Below, in pieces: positions 35,057 to 55,680 of a stretch of 64,000 nucleotides of DNA (position 1 is the stretch's first letter; the number at the start of each line of letters is the position of its first letter). The stretch comes from a virus. The notes beneath the pieces are model-generated. The model made no database searches, was not told where the DNA came from, and worked only from the letters and a program-made list of their open reading frames with translations. The stretch lies in IMG/VR virus record IMGVR_UViG_3300028608_000006, positions 167,789-231,788 of that record; one strand, written 5' to 3'. The position numbers and the translations under genes were made by a program.

Positions 35057-37360
35057 CTACTGGAGTGCGCAGTTAGAGTCAATCACCTTAAACGTTTTCT
35101 TCTTCGCCTCAAAGGCGACTTCACGTTTGCGGAAGTACTCTTTATGCTTAGGCTGGCTAGCACACACCCCGAATACGAACCGTGGGGTGATGCGGTTGTC
35201 GAATGTCTTCAACGCCTTGTCACGTAAACGCCCAATCATTTGTTTGTTGCGTTGAGTCGAACCGACCGTATGCATACAGAGCACAGTTACTAAACCATCA
35301 ATGTCCTTACCCGTTCCGCAACTACCAGGTGTCGTAATGACCACCTCGTGTTTCATGTACTTCAACTTATCGGCGTCTTTACCTTTGGTATCCTCGCCGT
35401 GGAAGGTGACGATGTCCATGCCGGGGTATTCCTTAAGGAACATCTCGAGCATAGCCTCGCACATGCTGACCCTGGAGAAGAAGAACAGACACTTAGTGCC
35501 CTCCTCTCGGCATTCGAGGTAATACTCCTCGAACATCTTCTTGGCCACTTCAAAGTAGAAGTTGGTGACCGTCCGATTGTTCAGAATGCTCTGTTCCCAG
35601 GTTAGGTCATTGTAACTACCGAACTGCTGGGTCTTCAGGTTATAACGTCGCGGGTTGATGTCGTACAGATAAGCGACAATGTCGATGTAGTTCTCAGGCT
35701 CCGGTTCCTTAAGCCGGATGTGAATTGGGAAGAGGATCCGATAGATCTTGTTAATGAACGGATCATCGCCAGACAGAGTTGCAGACAACACAACCAGCTT
35801 GGGGAAGTTACCATACATCAACGAAATGCAGACCTGGTGAATCGCCTCGTGACCTTCGTCAATGATCCTGAGACCGCACTGGAGGCTCTCAAAGATCTTG
35901 TCTAGGCTCGGAGTCTTGGGATCCTTCTTCTCGTTCCTGAAGTGCACGTCAATGCGTGTCATCGGCACAATGATGACCTTCGGATCGATCTCACCCCTCA
36001 GCATCACTTCCTGCAACAAGCACAGGTCCTGTTCCCACACCAAGACATCGGCAGGTTGCAGGTCGATGATGTCACCCAAGGCTTTAATCCAAGTGGTGAT
36101 GTACCGAGGTTGAATCGTAATCAGGGTTCGCTTGCCCATCAACAACATTGTCCGAAGGCCCATGTAGGTGTTGTGCGTAACGAGGTAGTCCTTGATCACA
36201 AAGCACTTTGATTCGTGCTCCACCGAGATGCAGGTGGTTTCAACTGGTCGATCGATCTCAATCCGATTAATCCGCAACGCCAGATCACGGTTGTCGTGTT
36301 CCCACATCGCTTCCACCTTTTCTTGAAAGGTGAACAAGACATGTGGGGTCCGGTGGGTAATCACAACGTAATTATCACCATCAGAGTAATGGGCTTTTGC
36401 AACACCCCCTACACTCCACACCAGATCACGAACCATCTTGGCGCTAGTACCGTAGTCGGAGCGATAGATGATTGACCCATCGGCCTGTGGCTCACCTGTA
36501 GCGTCCAACAACCCACGAAGCAACCCCATGCGCTGAGAGTGAGAACCCTCGAGGTACTTCTCGGTCAGGAACCGATCTGTTTGCCCGATCAGGTAGGCGT
36601 CGATAATGTCGCCGCGATCAGGATTGCGTTCACTGGCCGTTAAAGGAATGCGCCAGACTTTCTCTGGGCTGTCCACTAACTCTTGGGTGGTCTTAACCTC
36701 CCATTTTGACCAGCCATCCGCTCTGACTTCCCACTGGTGCTCAGGACACGCCACAACCGTCCTGCCGTCCTCGAAGGTCAGCTTGTACGTTGGTGTCACG
36801 CCTTGAGGGAAAACCCCTGTGACGTACGTGTGAGAGCCGTCAGGTGCCATGACCAGATCGTTCATCTTGACCTGTCCGATGGGCTTCCAACCTTTAGCTG
36901 TTCTGACCGGAGTACTGTTGGCCAGCGCTTTACCGTAACCTGTGGAGGCGTTGTTAACCTTCACAGCACCCGGAGCCAATTGGTAGTTAACCCACTCATC
37001 CTGACCGGGACGGGTGTTCTCGTAACCAGGACGAAACTTAAATCGAACGTCCTTGCCAACCAATTCCGGTTCAGTTACCAGCTCAACCCGAGACGGGTTA
37101 TAGCCTTTATACTGAGCGAACGCGATGAACTCTTTTAACAAACTTGCGGGGAGACGGTATTCACTCTTGTCAAAGTTCGACCGAGCAAACACATGAGTCA
37201 CTTCCATCTTTGTTCTACCGGTACCAGGAATTGGCACTTTCCCCATTTTGTAAAGGTTGGCCCGGCAGAAAGGCAGTATTACTTGTGCGGCGAACTCACC
37301 GTAGAACCCAAAGATTCGGAGGTAGTTATGCGCTCGCGAGATAGTGGCAACGTGGCGCAT
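35057..37360 (-). CDS. SF2 DNA helicase (UvsW-like) interrupted by an intein
   Basis: 767-residue precursor. Extein motifs: P-loop ASTGYGK (138-144) joined after splicing to Thr398 to give GYGKT, Walker B IIDEGHE, motif III LSATLSG, and motif VI QMIGRLR. After intein removal the helicase is 514 residues, in the range of phage UvsW-type branch-migration/recombination helicases, with an N-terminal non-helicase domain of about 130 residues. Because the intein breaks the ATP-binding loop, activity depends on splicing. Starts at ATG 37360; transcription continues into the small genes 33327-35029. Confidence 0.85.
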   Translation of the reverse strand: MRHVATISRAHNYLRIFGFYGEFAAQVILPFCRANLYKMGKVPIPGTGRTKMEVTHVFARSNFDKSEYRLPASLLKEFIAFAQYKGYNPSRVELVTEPELVGKDVRFKFRPGYENTRPGQDEWVNYQLAPGAVKVNNASTGYGKALANSTPVRTAKGWKPIGQVKMNDLVMAPDGSHTYVTGVFPQGVTPTYKLTFEDGRTVVACPEHQWEVRADGWSKWEVKTTQELVDSPEKVWRIPLTASERNPDRGDIIDAYLIGQTDRFLTEKYLEGSHSQRMGLLRGLLDATGEPQADGSIIYRSDYGTSAKMVRDLVWSVGGVAKAHYSDGDNYVVITHRTPHVLFTFQEKVEAMWEHDNRDLALRINRIEIDRPVETTCISVEHESKCFVIKDYLVTHNTYMGLRTMLLMGKRTLITIQPRYITTWIKALGDIIDLQPADVLVWEQDLCLLQEVMLRGEIDPKVIIVPMTRIDVHFRNEKKDPKTPSLDKIFESLQCGLRIIDEGHEAIHQVCISLMYGNFPKLVVLSATLSGDDPFINKIYRILFPIHIRLKEPEPENYIDIVAYLYDINPRRYNLKTQQFGSYNDLTWEQSILNNRTVTNFYFEVAKKMFEEYYLECREEGTKCLFFFSRVSMCEAMLEMFLKEYPGMDIVTFHGEDTKGKDADKLKYMKHEVVITTPGSCGTGKDIDGLVTVLCMHTVGSTQRNKQMIGRLRDKALKTFDNRITPRFVFGVCASQPKHKEYFRKREVAFEAKKKTFKVIDSNCALQ
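36170..36928 (-). mobile_element. Class 3 intein in helicase P-loop
   Basis: Residues 145-397 of the helicase precursor (253 residues), inserted between the Lys and Thr of the P-loop. It begins with Ala145 (ALANSTPVRTAKGW) instead of Cys/Ser. Block B is ACPEHQW, giving His208 and Trp210; block F contains Cys377 (ETTCISVEH); block G ends VTHN with Thr395, His396, Asn397 and Thr398 as the +1 residue. Trp, Cys and Thr at these places are the WCT signature of class 3 inteins, which splice through the block F cysteine. A LLRGLLDATGE element (280-290) looks like one LAGLIDADG motif; the partner motif is not evident, so the endonuclease is probably inactive or reduced. Confidence 0.85.
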
Positions 37361-37419: not shown

Positions 37420-39435
37420 TTAAGACGCACCTAACGCCCAGAAGCTCTCAAGTACGGAACCTTGACGGTCCATGGTCATGAAAGTACGCGGGTCGTTAAG
37501 AACGTTCTGTTGTTTCTCAAAGATTAACAAACCGCCTCCGCCCCGGCTGGTGATGCAGTTAATGAAACTGGAGAAGTACTTATCCCCAGAACCGTTAGCC
37601 ATTGCGAAGGACAGGTTGTTTGGATCTCTGGCCAGACAGCAATACAGTAGAGCTTCTACGTGCACTGCGTTAATACCTTTGATCTCCTGGTTAATAAGTG
37701 TCCAGAACTCAGACAATACTTCACCAAAGATCTTCGGCGTTACCACTTGGTTCCGCCATGCGGTATTGCGCTTGTTGAAGGTCATGAAGTTTTCCACACG
37801 AGCCCGGTGCATGTCCAAATCCTCACGAGTATAAGGAAGGGCAAACATCGGAGCCAGCGTGTTCCAATCAGACAGGTCGATGGAGATGAAGCGCTTATCC
37901 ACCGTGTTCCAACCTTTATCCAGCACGAAGCGCAGGAAGTCCAAGGAGAAACGAGCATTACGCGACGACACCGACGTGATAGCCGAATGCTGCTGCGTGG
38001 TCTTGCCACCCATCATGATGTCTTCCACTTGGTAGCGGAAGGTAACGTCAGAGAAGTACGGGAGCTTATCCAGCCCAACGTCGTCCAATACATCGAGCGA
38101 CTTCAGGTCAGACAGGTCCTTAACAATCGACGACTTCAGAATCAGCTCGGAACCCGGTACGCAGATCTCAGCCTTCAGGAAGATTTCATCCCCGTTGGTA
38201 TAAATGATATCTTTGTCCCGGACGTGAGGCACAAACTTCCGCGAGGTTGCGTTGCGGATGTAGTGCTTAGTACTGAGCATTTTCTGCCCCATCGGGTTAC
38301 ATAAGGTAGTACCCGAGTACATTCCCACGTTCGCGTCTTTCATCATCATGACGTTAAACGGGATGGTCGACTTCATTTTGCCGTAGCAGCGACCGCACGG
38401 CTGGCCAGGGTTGTGAGAGTTACAGAACGCCATGCTGCGGAAGGTAACGACGTCACCGGTCTTGATCGTGTCGACGTTGCGTTGATCAATCAGAACCGAT
38501 GAACCGTCCGCTAGGATGATGTACTTGCCCATCAAGGACAAAGCCATCTCCATGTTGAGGATCTTCATAGGAACGCCCACAGTCGTCCCACAGTCGTTCA
38601 TGTGCAAGATGCTGTGTAACGGCGCCGACAGCAAGTGAATCTTGCGGTGGAACCACTCAGCGTCCTTCAGACCCTTACCGTTGTTGATCAGCGACTTACC
38701 GGATGAGTTACGTTCACCCAAGGAGTCAGCCAGGTTGGTGATGCCGTGAGCATACGGCACGTTAACCGAGTTCGGGAAGATGGTGTTGTTCAAGTCAAAC
38801 ACCGAACCACGAATGATCGTCGTCTGGAATGCTTGGTTGATACTCACGCCACCTGTCCGCGCCAGCAGTGCCATGGTGTTGGTATTCAGACTCTCGGCTT
38901 CACGCAGATAGTTACTGAACACTTTCTCGCCATCGTCAATGCTGATCTCGTGCGCCAAGATACGGTCACGGATATCCATGATGCCGACGTCTTCCATCAG
39001 CTCGGCCACAGACTCAGCCGTCGCCGAAATTACCGACGCCTCACTCATCACCACAATCATGTTGTTGAGTTTGGTTTGCCAGATGTGGATCAGTCGCTTG
39101 ATACTGTCAGTCTCAACAGGATCATCGATCTCCGGCATAACGCTTTCCAGAATCCAGTTCACCGGAATGGCCAGAGTATCGTCGCTGTACACCACCTCCT
39201 TATGTTCTGGATTCTTGTTGGACGGGACCAGCTCGTCAATCGAGTAAGCCACGTTGTTGTACTTGCGGTGAACGATCAAGCCTTGCCATGTCAGCATCAT
39301 CGCGAACAGGCAGGACATTGTCTTCTTACCTTCGTCGTCCACCACCTCTACTGCTTGGCGGTGACCACGACAACGAAGGATATCCGCTTCAGTGAGGTTG
39401 GCCCATTCACGCAGGCTAATTTGCATCATGCCCAT
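37420..39435 (-). CDS. RNA polymerase beta' C-terminal subunit, non-virion polymerase
   Basis: 671 residues. Beta' elements: a bridge/funnel-like segment SGKSLINNGKGLKD, DCGT (281-284), a zinc-type site with Cys338, Cys347 and Cys350 (PGQPCGRCYG), and GQKMLSTKHYIRNAT (383-397) in the place of the QLTMRTFH trigger-loop end. Start ATG 39435 overlaps the stop of the beta C gene by TAATG, so the two subunits are coupled. The order beta C then beta' C matches phiKZ gp71-73 and gp74 as I recall them, subunits of the polymerase that transcribes late genes. Confidence 0.85.
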   Translation of the reverse strand: MGMMQISLREWANLTEADILRCRGHRQAVEVVDDEGKKTMSCLFAMMLTWQGLIVHRKYNNVAYSIDELVPSNKNPEHKEVVYSDDTLAIPVNWILESVMPEIDDPVETDSIKRLIHIWQTKLNNMIVVMSEASVISATAESVAELMEDVGIMDIRDRILAHEISIDDGEKVFSNYLREAESLNTNTMALLARTGGVSINQAFQTTIIRGSVFDLNNTIFPNSVNVPYAHGITNLADSLGERNSSGKSLINNGKGLKDAEWFHRKIHLLSAPLHSILHMNDCGTTVGVPMKILNMEMALSLMGKYIILADGSSVLIDQRNVDTIKTGDVVTFRSMAFCNSHNPGQPCGRCYGKMKSTIPFNVMMMKDANVGMYSGTTLCNPMGQKMLSTKHYIRNATSRKFVPHVRDKDIIYTNGDEIFLKAEICVPGSELILKSSIVKDLSDLKSLDVLDDVGLDKLPYFSDVTFRYQVEDIMMGGKTTQQHSAITSVSSRNARFSLDFLRFVLDKGWNTVDKRFISIDLSDWNTLAPMFALPYTREDLDMHRARVENFMTFNKRNTAWRNQVVTPKIFGEVLSEFWTLINQEIKGINAVHVEALLYCCLARDPNNLSFAMANGSGDKYFSSFINCITSRGGGGLLIFEKQQNVLNDPRTFMTMDRQGSVLESFWALGAS

Positions 39436-41780
39436 TACAAGCCCCCGTAAATATTGTCAGTACCGCCGGTAACCCCGGTCATGTGCAGGTCTTCACCGAA
39501 TGCTACCGGATTAGGCAAGCGCTTACCCGAGTAACGTGGTTCGGCAGGTGGAGCTGGTTCCGGTTCAGGCTTATTAAGACCGCTCTCAGCCAACTCGAGT
39601 GCCACGCCGCTCAACTGGCTCATATCGAGCAGGTTGTTGATTGGCTCCATGGTTCGGTCAGTCGGGAGTTCATGACGGATGGTGTAACCCGAGTCAGACA
39701 ACATACTTGCAGCCATCTTCACGGCCCGGTTGTTCTGATACTCGTCTGGCTTCACAATCTGATCGATGTTAAACGGATCGTCTGCCCGGATAATACGGCG
39801 CACCATCACTTTACGCAGATCCGGTGAATACGCCATGGCCAATTGCTTAGCCGTTTCCTGACCACCGTGTTGGCTGGTGCGCAGACGACCTTCCGTTTCA
39901 CCCGTGTTACGGTTGCCCTGATCTCGCAGCCAGCTGGAGTACTTGCTGCTGTCGTTCAGTTTAGCCGGCATACCGAACAGGTTGGACTTAGGCAATGCCT
40001 GAGCCGACATATCCGTACCGAACTTATCCAGCATCATGAAGTGCTGGTTACTGATCAGGATTGGGTTCACGGTCTCCACGTACTCACCCAGCGAGTTCAT
40101 GAAGGTTGCCTTCTGCGGTTTGAAGGGATACTTCGCGCGCAGGGCGTTGATGATCGCCACACCATACAACCGGGTGTTACTGCGAACATGGATAGAGATC
40201 ATCTTGTCGCAGCAGTGGTCGACGTAATCCTTAATGTCGTCCGCATTGGTGTAGGTCGCCCGAACGATCTCACCGAACTCCGGGAACCCAGTTTCGCAGA
40301 ACTCGAGGATCATTGCGTAAGCTTCAGCGTACTGACCCAGGTTACGAAGCAACCGCGCTTCTTTCTGGATGTTAACGTTGATGTAGTTGATACTGAGCTC
40401 CATCAACATCGAGTAGATCTGACGACGGAACGCTGGCGTGTTGTTGATGATGACTTCCGCACGAGTACCGTCCGCATAGGTCGGCGCCATGTGGTCCTCG
40501 ATGATGCTCACCGCAACACCTTTGTCGCCGTTCAACCCTGCGAACTTGAACTTGATCTTGCCAGGCACGATTTCGCGCAGCAGGATATTAATGTTCCAGT
40601 CCTTCAACTTGACCCGCTTGATCCCCCGGCTGAGTGGGTTGATCTTGCCAGTGTTGGTATTACGGGTGTAGTTGCCGTATGCCGAGTTAATGAAGGTATC
40701 CAGTTCCAGCGTGATCGGGATGTCATTACCACGGTTGTTCGCGATACGACGTTCGTACCAACGAATCACGTTGTTGTGCATCTCGTTCTGCTTCTTCTCA
40801 TAACGCTCGAGAAGAATGTTGTGTGGCTGCTCGATGTAATCCGTACCGCGATTGTTAGCGCGGTTCTTCATGCGGTCACTCAACACTTCGACCGACATTA
40901 CTTCCGAGTTGATCGGAGCGTAAAACAGTTGATCGTAGGTCAGGTCCGGGATACGCAAAGCTTTACGTGTCAACGACACCAAGGAGTTCTCGGTGATGCG
41001 ACGACGGAAGCCCATGACGATGCCGTCTTCACGAATGCGCTGACCCGATTGTGGGAACGGGCAGTCATTACCTTGTGCATCTTTGTAAAGCATCAACGGA
41101 ACGAATTCTTCCTCGTTCCACTGGAAACCACGTTCGTGCTTGAACATGCACTTCAAACGTTCTTCAGCGTACGATCGAGTCAGCTGAATTGCATCCTCCT
41201 CGGTAACGTGGCTGGAGATCGCTGCAACGCGGGTGTTCATGCCGAAGCACCATTCGCCGCTTTCGCTGATCCGTGGGGACTTGGCGAAGACCGTGCCTTT
41301 CGGGAAGGTGGCCAGTGGCGACATCAGCTTGCGCATCACGTCTTTGTCGTAGACAAACTCGAACCCCACATATGTGTTCTGTGTGTTGTACCGGGGGAGT
41401 TCAAGAATGTCGTACATGTTCTTTTCGTCATTCTTATAAATGACGTACACTTTGTTCCAGGCGTCAGTCATCTCACGCGGGTCTTGGCTCCCCACGAAGA
41501 ACACTTCTTCCACTTGCATGTTGGCTGGCGCTACAATCTGGCGAGCAGTTTGAGCGTAACCTTGTTTCCACTCAAAGCCAGTCACCATCATGCGCTCATC
41601 GGCACCCGAGGTAACTACCGACTTCGGAATCATGTTGCCGGCCATGTACAGACGACCAGCAGAAGCCGACCACGGGAACAGAATCAGGTTGTTACTGACA
41701 CCCACCAGCGCAGGATGGATTTGGTTCGGTCCGCAGATGTATTTATATTTAACATCTTGCTGAGTCTCGTTGTCACTCAT
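39435..41780 (-). CDS. RNA polymerase beta C-terminal subunit, non-virion polymerase
   Basis: 781 residues. The decisive element is KFKFAGLNGDKGVAV (410-424) followed by MAPTYADGTRAEVIIN (431-446), matching bacterial beta KMAGRHGNKGVIS and MPY-DG-PVDIVLNP. The invariant RH of GRHGNKG is LN here. A Pro/Glu-rich linker precedes the last 35 residues. There is a promoter-like element at 41833-41861 upstream of ATG 41780. By motif and neighbours it corresponds to phiKZ gp71-73. The N-terminal beta part (phiKZ gp123-like) is not in the window. Confidence 0.85.
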   Translation of the reverse strand: MSDNETQQDVKYKYICGPNQIHPALVGVSNNLILFPWSASAGRLYMAGNMIPKSVVTSGADERMMVTGFEWKQGYAQTARQIVAPANMQVEEVFFVGSQDPREMTDAWNKVYVIYKNDEKNMYDILELPRYNTQNTYVGFEFVYDKDVMRKLMSPLATFPKGTVFAKSPRISESGEWCFGMNTRVAAISSHVTEEDAIQLTRSYAEERLKCMFKHERGFQWNEEEFVPLMLYKDAQGNDCPFPQSGQRIREDGIVMGFRRRITENSLVSLTRKALRIPDLTYDQLFYAPINSEVMSVEVLSDRMKNRANNRGTDYIEQPHNILLERYEKKQNEMHNNVIRWYERRIANNRGNDIPITLELDTFINSAYGNYTRNTNTGKINPLSRGIKRVKLKDWNINILLREIVPGKIKFKFAGLNGDKGVAVSIIEDHMAPTYADGTRAEVIINNTPAFRRQIYSMLMELSINYINVNIQKEARLLRNLGQYAEAYAMILEFCETGFPEFGEIVRATYTNADDIKDYVDHCCDKMISIHVRSNTRLYGVAIINALRAKYPFKPQKATFMNSLGEYVETVNPILISNQHFMMLDKFGTDMSAQALPKSNLFGMPAKLNDSSKYSSWLRDQGNRNTGETEGRLRTSQHGGQETAKQLAMAYSPDLRKVMVRRIIRADDPFNIDQIVKPDEYQNNRAVKMAASMLSDSGYTIRHELPTDRTMEPINNLLDMSQLSGVALELAESGLNKPEPEPAPPAEPRYSGKRLPNPVAFGEDLHMTGVTGGTDNIYGGL

Positions 41781-53446: not shown

Positions 53447-55462
53447 TCAACCGAAGGCTTGACCCATGCCGTAGCCTGCACCGATGCCGGCACCGCTTGG
53501 GTTGTTGCTGCCAACCGAGGTGTAGGTAGCCAGACCAGCGCCCGGTGCGAACACCAGAGTGTTGGAACGGAACGAACCCAGGTTGTTGGCGACGTTCAGA
53601 GTACCGATGCCGTCCATTGCTTCGCCGATAACGGCCATCAGCTGCGGATCCCAGATGTGAGTCTGAGCGAACGAGTTGATGTGGACTGCGCCGTCGAAGA
53701 TCGACTGGTTCAGTTCCAGACGCAGTTTCTGGCAACGAGCTTTGAAGTCCTCGTTGGTCATGCCGTACTGGGTAGCCAGGTACTGCTGGATCGACGCGGT
53801 GCCGCCTTTGCCCTTGAGGTGACCGAGCATCATCTCGTCCAGCTCTTGGGTGTTCAGCTTCTTGCCGCCGATTTCCGCCAGGCCGTTGACAGTGATGACC
53901 GGAGTACGGTGCAGCACAGGCATGCTTGGGTTCCAGCCGGTGGTGGCCTTGATGTTGCGATCAACCAGAGTCGAGAACGCACCATTCGACAGCGCATCCA
54001 GGATGGCGATCATGGTTTGTACTTCTTCCTTGCGGTTCTTGCTCGCCAGGCGAACCAGGAAGTTCTGGATCGAGGCGTGCGGGCCGCATGGGTTGATGTT
54101 GACCTGGAACGTAGCGTGCGGGCTGACGTTCTGACGGATCCAGGAGTTAACCAGGTCGGTGTCAGAAACAGTCTTCTCGGTCAGCACGATGCGGTTAGGC
54201 ACGGTACCAACTTGAGCCAGCATTTCGTCGATACGGACTTCCAGGGAAGCCAGGTTACCGCGAGCGCCAACGCTGTGCTTACGCAGAGCTTCAGCGAACA
54301 CGAAGTTGTTGTTGGTTGCCATCAACAGGTACAGGCCGAAGAAGAACGGCGCCAGACCTTGGTTGTAGCTCATCATCTCGCCAGCTTGCGCTTCTTCGAT
54401 GGTGATCACCGGTGCCAGAGGACGGTAGCCCTGTGGGTAGATGCCGCCGCCCAGGTTCATCATGCGTTGCAGGGCTTCTTGCTGCTGACGACCGGAAGCG
54501 GCTGCCAGTTGAGCGGTGTAGGCCTGGAACGATTGTGCGTTCAGAGCGACCGTTGCGGTAACGCGAGCGATCTCCTTGCTGTTCGCAGCGTAGGCGTTCG
54601 GGTTGTTGATGTTGTTCATGGTGGAAGCGATCACTTCCATGTTGGCCGCCGACAGAGTCTTGCCGGCGGTTACACGACCGCTGATAGCCGAGACGCGGGC
54701 TTCAGCATGACCGTCCTTGCCGTAAGGCGAGGTCTTGTTGGCGAAAGGCGAAGGCAGTTTCTGACCAGCGATGGCCATTTCCTGCGGAACCTTGACCAGC
54801 AGTGCTTCTTCCCATGCACCGGTGAGGTACTGAGACAGAGCGTGCGGACGATCTTTCGGATCACCAGCTTCTGGGTGGTCCAGCATTTCCAGGTCGACAA
54901 CCACCATGTTGATGATGGTAACGGCCTTGACGCCTTTGGATTCGCCGACGCGGGTGTAGTGAGCACGCAGGTTGTCGACGACGTTCTTGTCGGCGTAGCT
55001 GGCCGGGGTCAGTGGCGCCGATACCGATTGCGAAACGCCGGTGCCGAAGCCCATCGGGGTGTTCATGCGGATGTATTCGGAGCTGATGGTCAGGTGCTTG
55101 TTGGAGAACAGAGCGCCCATGACGTACAGCACGCCGCCGATTTCGCGGTAGAAGCAGATGCCAGGCAGAACAGGCGAGATCGACGGAGTCATGGATTCGA
55201 CGTCCGGGATGATGCTCAGTTGCAGCTCGGTCGTGGTGGACGACTTGATGCGCTTGTAGGTTTCGATGATCGCTTCGGTGGTGTCCGCTACTTCTTTCAG
55301 GTTGCGGTTGTCCGAGGTCATCGAGACCAGACCGAACAGACCAGCGAGGCCGCCTTTAGCCAGACCGGAAGTGGTGGTCAGGATTGCTGCGTCATCGGCA
55401 GCATCTTTACCTGCTGCGTTGTTGCCGTCTTCCCAGGAAGATTTGCCAGTGTTAACGCTCAT
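53447..55462 (-). CDS. chmA: Chimallin candidate (phage nucleus shell protein)
   Basis: 671 residues from ATG 55462 (GGAG upstream); an open upstream extension is non-coding and overlaps the promoter. The body is soluble, alpha/beta and Ala/Asn rich with a flexible Gly-rich C-terminal tail (last 30 residues, GSNNPSGAGIGAGYGMGQAFG-like). Third-position C/G bias is among the strongest in the window, as expected for a very abundant protein. It has the best copy of the early-type promoter element and is followed by the RNA polymerase beta' N gene, exactly as phiKZ gp54 is followed by gp55. Known chimallins are about 610-630 residues. Identification rests on position, promoter and size, not on a recalled sequence match. 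Confidence 0.7.
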   Translation of the reverse strand: MSVNTGKSSWEDGNNAAGKDAADDAAILTTTSGLAKGGLAGLFGLVSMTSDNRNLKEVADTTEAIIETYKRIKSSTTTELQLSIIPDVESMTPSISPVLPGICFYREIGGVLYVMGALFSNKHLTISSEYIRMNTPMGFGTGVSQSVSAPLTPASYADKNVVDNLRAHYTRVGESKGVKAVTIINMVVVDLEMLDHPEAGDPKDRPHALSQYLTGAWEEALLVKVPQEMAIAGQKLPSPFANKTSPYGKDGHAEARVSAISGRVTAGKTLSAANMEVIASTMNNINNPNAYAANSKEIARVTATVALNAQSFQAYTAQLAAASGRQQQEALQRMMNLGGGIYPQGYRPLAPVITIEEAQAGEMMSYNQGLAPFFFGLYLLMATNNNFVFAEALRKHSVGARGNLASLEVRIDEMLAQVGTVPNRIVLTEKTVSDTDLVNSWIRQNVSPHATFQVNINPCGPHASIQNFLVRLASKNRKEEVQTMIAILDALSNGAFSTLVDRNIKATTGWNPSMPVLHRTPVITVNGLAEIGGKKLNTQELDEMMLGHLKGKGGTASIQQYLATQYGMTNEDFKARCQKLRLELNQSIFDGAVHINSFAQTHIWDPQLMAVIGEAMDGIGTLNVANNLGSFRSNTLVFAPGAGLATYTSVGSNNPSGAGIGAGYGMGQAFG

Positions 55463-55550
55463 GTTGTAACTCCATTGCTCTGAAGAATTAGTGGGGTATA
55501 TCGTAATCGCTGTTTTTAACAGTATTGCTAATAGATCTTCTAGCGATTTA

Positions 55551-55579
55551 CCTACTAATGATATGGGTCTCAAATATTC
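55551..55579 (-). promoter_or_regulatory. Early-type promoter element before chimallin candidate
   Basis: Minus strand reads GAATATTTGAGACCCATATC then ATTAGTAGG, about 90 bases before ATG 55462. Best defined copy of the recurrent element; its ATTAGTAGGTAAA end is identical to the copy at 46815-46844. Confidence 0.75.
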
Positions 55580-55680
55580 TAGCCCCACACCAAATCGGTC
55601 AAAATGCGCTATCGACCCTCCCGGATTTCTCCAGGAGTCTTAACGGTGTATACAATAGGAACATAATTAGGATTTAATTT

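Follow-up and report, generated by a model that had tools for sequence, protein, structure and literature searches.

A 253-residue insert that divides the Walker A loop of a phage SF2 helicase is very probably a class 3 intein without a homing endonuclease, which would splice out of a 767-aa precursor and restore the active enzyme. The gene lies in the window, the whole 64,000-nt stretch of viral DNA that we analysed, taken from a record of 231,788 bp (Table 1).

Position of the insert in the helicase

The precursor matched the phrog_16 DNA helicase profile over residues 9–744 of its 767 (PHROG profiles, E 3.5e-43) and Pfam Helicase_C (E 8e-6). Together with the Walker A residues GYGK/T, the DEGH box, an SAT motif at residues 526–528 and a motif VI region, these matches point to an SF2 DExH helicase; the Rad25-like kinship of the phiKZ-type helicase is taken from PMC7824862. 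Both helicase halves are conserved and in frame among relatives. The structure model of the whole precursor was poor (pLDDT 65.5) and lends the intein-containing helicase part no structural support.

The insert translates without a stop into 253 residues (ALANSTPV...VTHN), in frame within the 767-aa ORF, and exactly splits Walker A, the junctions reading NNASTGYGK/ALANSTPV...VTHN/TYMGLRT. The initial annotation had placed a 253-residue insertion between Lys144 and Thr398 of the P-loop, and translation confirmed this to the residue; its residue numbers were right throughout, and the features it named are present, with the Ala start, HQW at 208–210, Cys377 (intein Cys233) and THN at 395–397. Helicases of the same family with an empty site carry GxGK-T/S, which fixes both splice junctions. 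Such sites are found in Erwinia phage RisingSun (GGGK-TFCAL), Vibrio phage Aphrodite1 (GQGK-TFMAT) and Pseudomonas phage OBP (GFGK-SFMAI), as well as in two metagenomic relatives, L179 (TGNGKTFM) and L199 (TGYGKTYM), whose C-exteins are ∼60% identical to that of the window.

Table 1. Features of the helicase gene, its intein and other genes discussed. Positions are those of the window, except for the second and third inteins, which carry G000:C1 coordinates.
Feature	Position	Strand	Evidence
Precursor gene, SF2 (DExH) helicase, 767 aa including intein	35057..37360	-	Uninterrupted ORF; phrog_16, Pfam Helicase_C
N-extein, residues 1-144, ends GYGK (first part of Walker A)	36929..37360	-	Empty-site homologues GxGK-T/S
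Class 3 intein (probable), 253 aa, Ala1 to Asn253 (precursor residues 145-397)	36170..36928	-	Motifs, PDB matches, model
Block B H-Q-W, residues 208-210 (His B:10, Trp B:12; intein His64/Trp66)	36731..36739	-	His and Trp invariant, 36 sequences
LAGLIDADG motif 1 remnant AYLIGQT (full forms PYxLGxxLGDG)	36578..36598	-	Alignment with FishSpeaker, ZK_P1, D6, Proteus 10, JN03
LAGLIDADG motif 2 remnant LLRGLLDATG (full forms LLxGLLDTDG; acidic residue to Thr)	36494..36523	-	Alignment
Cys377 (intein Cys233), block F nucleophile F:4	36230..36232	-	Invariant, 36 sequences
T-H-N intein end (Thr G:5, His G:6, Asn G:7; Thr251-His252-Asn253)	36170..36178	-	Invariant, 36 sequences
C-extein, residues 398-767, starts at Thr+1 of Walker A	35060..36169	-	
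Walker B / motif II DEGH, residues 501-504	35849..35860	-	Sequence; invariant in close relatives
Helicase motif VI region QRNKQMIGRLR, residues 703-713	35222..35254	-	Sequence; close relatives invariant at nearly all positions
Upstream neighbour, phage RNA polymerase subunit	37420..39435	-	phrog_3015, E 4.2e-191
Next gene upstream, phage RNA polymerase subunit	39435..41780	-	phrog_3295, E 2e-218
Nuclear shell protein homologue	53447-55588	-	phrog_4795, E 4.5e-139
Second intein (L041), Walker A of SNF2-like helicase, GSGK/AMPKSTK...THN/TFTSL	G000:C1:63352-64161	+	Class 3 set, without endonuclease acidic motifs
Third intein (L042), Walker A of terminase large subunit, RQQGK/MQRNSSK...THN/TVSVQ	G000:C1:7826-8713	-	Class 3 set, without endonuclease acidic motifs

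Two further observations concern the same loop. Six intein-free helicase homologues (L197, L200, L201, L202, L205 and L218) have GK-G at Walker A rather than GK-T/S and so offer no nucleophile at +1, where a class 3 intein requires one; this form might reflect resistance to invasion, or it might be a scar. In a helicase relative, L229, the Walker A loop is interrupted soon after its first Gly by an insert starting with CICGQSKIFF (LQTG/CICG), whose sequence suggests a class 1 intein located elsewhere in this loop.

Class 3 motifs, predicted fold and selection

Class 3 inteins are defined by Trp B:12, Cys F:4 and Thr G:5 (PMC5050341, PMC7664689), and the role of their block F Cys has been described (PMC5050341, PMC5222942, PMC7664689). 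In the window intein these residues are Trp66, Cys233 and Thr251, all invariant in an alignment of 36 sequences, as are His64, His252 and Asn253; the +1 residue is Thr. Position 1 holds Ala145 and thus no Cys, Ser or Thr nucleophile, and across relatives it may be A, M, L, E, S, V, Q, G or, rarely, C, a variability that is expected of a residue that is not the nucleophile. Block B departs from that of the class 3 intein DnaBi1, reading CPEHQW as against DxxH (PMC6195587).

By phmmer, the insert matched class 3 inteins in the PDB from residue 1 onwards (6bs8, E 7e-8; 6rix/6riy, E 8e-7). The class 1 intein gp41-1, which has THN, was matched at a similar level, so similarity alone leaves the class unsettled and the residues settle it. 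Intein-bearing phage PHROG families were matched with E values down to 1.6e-13, while Pfam and NCBIfam searches named the insert only below their cut-offs, and we did not take family names as proof. The phmmer matches to designed repeat proteins (Cake, Scone) added up numerous very weak stretches, and we set them aside. AlphaFold2 modelling of residues 145–397 gave a confident predicted HINT domain (pLDDT 94.6, pTM 0.91), for which Foldseek returned 6bs8, 6rix and 6riy at target-normalised TM scores of 0.77–0.86 and E values of 6e-9 to 6e-8, with 0.86 for 6bs8_C and 0.82 for 6rix_B. It also grouped the model with PI-SceI, an intein having an endonuclease part. The motif set, the PDB matches and the predicted fold thus bear out the class 3 identity that had been proposed for the insert.

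From these features we propose that, once the 767-aa precursor has been translated, the block F cysteine, Cys377, would attack the Lys144–Ala145 peptide bond and the acyl group would then be transferred to Thr398; cyclisation of Asn397 would leave Lys144 joined to Thr398, restoring GYGKT. Proper ATP binding would be impossible before this point, and the active 514-aa helicase would depend on splicing. Such a dependence had been suggested from the start, and our reading agrees with it.

A predicted class 3 intein need not be functional: one in Arthrobacter is reported to be a pseudogene (PMC3196547), and the splicing of the window intein is something that we infer. An intein that is splicing-dead, or that cleaves at one end only, would leave a helicase that is non-functional or in two pieces. 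However, the splicing residues are intact in all aligned relatives and, as noted above, both helicase halves are conserved and in frame. The intein frame is also open in the relatives read, and dN/dS over the whole intein was ∼0.05–0.22 in the pairs compared (simple pairwise estimates that are approximate because dS was often high). The whole intein is under purifying selection, and we regard a dead or half-cleaving element as very unlikely.

Loss of the homing endonuclease

An active LAGLIDADG endonuclease has two motifs, each ending in an acidic residue. Aligned with full-length relatives at the same site, the window intein has lost ∼70 residues around the first motif, between AYLIGQT and LLRGLLDATG, and neither remnant keeps its acidic residue. 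The acidic motifs (GDG or a close variant, plus DTDG) are absent in the window clade but intact in the inteins of FishSpeaker, ZK_P1, AerS_266, D6, Proteus 10, Rebecca, JN03 and Kwan. Judged by its motifs, the homing endonuclease of the window intein is dead. The initial annotation had suspected such a loss, which stood, and had seen a single LAGLIDADG-like motif, which needs refining, as remnants of both halves are present. L003–L009, L013, L014, L018 and L019 share the ∼70-residue gap, and L180 matches them in spacing, a pattern that suggests a single ancestral loss.

The remnant of the endonuclease is still under purifying selection, with dN/dS of 0.01–0.28 in the pairs compared (again approximate, with dS often high). 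Its conservation and the confident fold of the insert would also suit an extra domain that stays in the mature helicase, but the insert splits Walker A between its Lys and Thr, homologues without it have a clean site, and the catalytic residues for its removal are invariant. Retention in the mature protein is therefore scarcely credible, and excision of an endonuclease-less class 3 intein remains our preferred reading.

Related inteins and their insertion sites

Rarity, which had been ascribed to class 3 inteins, was not borne out in phages: 362 phage records match the insert, and homologous inteins occupy the same helicase site in phiKZ-like phages, among them EL, D6, AerS_266 and FishSpeaker. 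Using a profile of the family, we fetched 66 loci from viral contigs and read the junctions, from alignment positions, for the 38 outside the close clade of the window. GK directly precedes the intein, and Thr or Ser follows it, at 34 of these 38 loci (in L099 shifted by one residue). The other four are L096, with RK, L102, which could not be placed from a partial match, and L056 and L057, which have no C-extein after THN. The latter two contain a class 3-like intein in which VTHN is followed by GEC and a stop. Judging by the sequence next to the junction alone, ATPases of several kinds are among the hosts.

One site lies outside this range of proteins. In Pseudomonas phage EL (NC_007623.1, 45452-46543), a full-length class 3 intein is inserted in an RNA polymerase subunit at ERNAAGK/SLTNN, where the peptide resembles Walker A although the protein is no P-loop ATPase. 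The RNA polymerase of the window has a stretch matching the EL site, GERNSSGKSLINN, without an intein. Since the EL subunit was invaded at AAGK/S, the target may be DNA encoding GK-T/S rather than an ATPase as such.

A close known counterpart is the helicase intein of EL (PPEV_gp040, YP_418073.1), which shares with the window intein the gene, the K/T site, the gene order next to an RNA polymerase subunit, the WCT set and the lack of intact endonuclease motifs. At 248 aa, it is nevertheless only 36% identical, belongs to a different intein branch and begins with Met. EL inteins are presumably among those listed in InBase. Full-length class 3 inteins of FishSpeaker, D6, AerS_266, JN03 and PhiPA3 belong to the same family and share the Walker A site but, unlike that of the window, keep the acidic residues of both LAGLIDADG motifs; the PhiPA3 intein sits in a SNF2-type helicase.

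Among characterised class 3 inteins, MsmDnaBi1, MchDnaB1 and MleDnaB (6bs8, 6rix and 6riy) have the HINT fold, the WCT set and Ala1, as in the window. DnaBi1 is likewise inserted in a P-loop (PMC6195587), and class 3 splicing has been shown for Msm and Mle (PMC5222942). These mycobacterial mini-inteins differ in being 139–145 aa long, in residing in the replicative helicase DnaB, in the +1 Ser of DnaBi1 and in having no folded endonuclease remnant comparable to that of the window intein. In mycobacteriophages, the TerL1-a inteins also separate the invariant P-loop Lys from the invariant Thr (PMC5050341), but their host protein is a terminase; the likeness drawn here is that of the insertion site.

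Gene context and phage type

Only 59 bp separate the helicase gene from the nearest RNA polymerase subunit gene, and most of the related phages that we looked at also have an RNA polymerase gene directly or a short way upstream of it. As RNA polymerase subunit genes adjoin it, a role in transcription fits the helicase better than recombination-dependent replication, the role of UvsW-type helicases, for which, although it had been put forward for this gene, we found no support. A published comparison points the same way: the helicase of group 1 jumbo phages, which is Rad25-like, may cooperate with the phage RNA polymerase, perhaps in the manner of RapA (PMC7824862). PADLOC found nothing. Besides a phage DNA polymerase, the window encodes a homologue of the nuclear shell protein, so that by gene content the phage is of the nucleus-forming type of jumbo phage, in a clade of chimallin-encoding phages.

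Three inteins in one genome

Searching the record with the family profile identified three class 3 inteins, in the helicase, in an SNF2-like helicase and in the terminase large subunit (the last two proteins named by similarity to annotated phage homologues). The same three sites are occupied in the records of eight relatives, seven close ones and the more distant L015, and neither there nor in the window genome does any of the three have endonuclease acidic motifs. Other phages show other combinations of sites, down to none. In a further record, L245 (G013:C1:39054-39794), a free-standing 314-aa frame resembles the SNF2-site intein but ends in VTR, not VTHN; going by its sequence, it is a possible intein remnant or split form.

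Full occupancy by endonuclease-dead elements in all nine genomes would fit a domestication of the three inteins into a common timer or redox switch that acts after translation. In the chimallin-encoding clade, the three Walker A inteins would then be retained with splicing jointly timing or conditioning the activation of the ATPases during infection. Redox control of the class 3 DnaBi1 of Mycobacterium smegmatis (PMC6195587) and further cysteines at positions 61 and 242 of the window intein are in keeping with such a switch. Nevertheless, the related phages L179, L188, L196 and L199 keep the helicase without the intein, sites are gained and lost independently of each other, and intein presence changes state at least 12 times on the helicase tree. 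Because relatives lack the helicase intein and inteins come and go among related phages, we consider domestication unlikely, and joint timing equally so.

Probable movement of the intein between phages

The distribution of the intein is patchy: its presence needs 12 changes on the 51-row helicase tree, and even sister phages differ, the helicase intein being present in VP4B and absent in L209. In the intein tree, the window clade has one group of helicase-site inteins and a separate one of SNF2-site inteins, and most terminase-site inteins fall into a group of their own. In FishSpeaker, by contrast, the two inteins at the helicase and SNF2 sites are sisters, which suggests a jump from P-loop to P-loop within a genome or close lineage.

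Intein and extein trees also conflict. Exteins group the window with L005, and with L003 and L009; inteins group the window with L003 and exclude L009 from a group to which L004 and L013 belong. In AU tests, the extein data rejected the intein groupings (p 2e-5 and 0.002) and the intein data also rejected those of the exteins, though less strongly (p 0.032 and 0.024), all of these values being optimistic in that the groups were named after the trees had been seen. Given this disagreement, the element appears to have passed from phage to phage despite a seemingly dead endonuclease; within the window clade, copies lacking endonuclease function appear to have switched to other lineages of the host gene. 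Exchange by recombination between helicase genes is the simplest reading; an alternative would be cutting in trans by another endonuclease. The element would thus descend from LAGLIDADG class 3 inteins that sit mainly at the Walker A K/T or K/S junction of phage ATPases, and the endonuclease-less lineage would be maintained by splicing precisely, by being inherited and by recombining with relatives.

Discussion

The window intein is sound but not unprecedented, as its family recurs at exactly the Walker A loop in many phage ATPases. Taken alone, it is a good and easily tested example of class 3. More useful is the wider picture of a class 3 family that occupies the Walker A loop of many different phage ATPases at the K/T or K/S junction, where full endonucleases, eroded ones and empty sites form a natural series for how inteins persist and move after the loss of their endonuclease.
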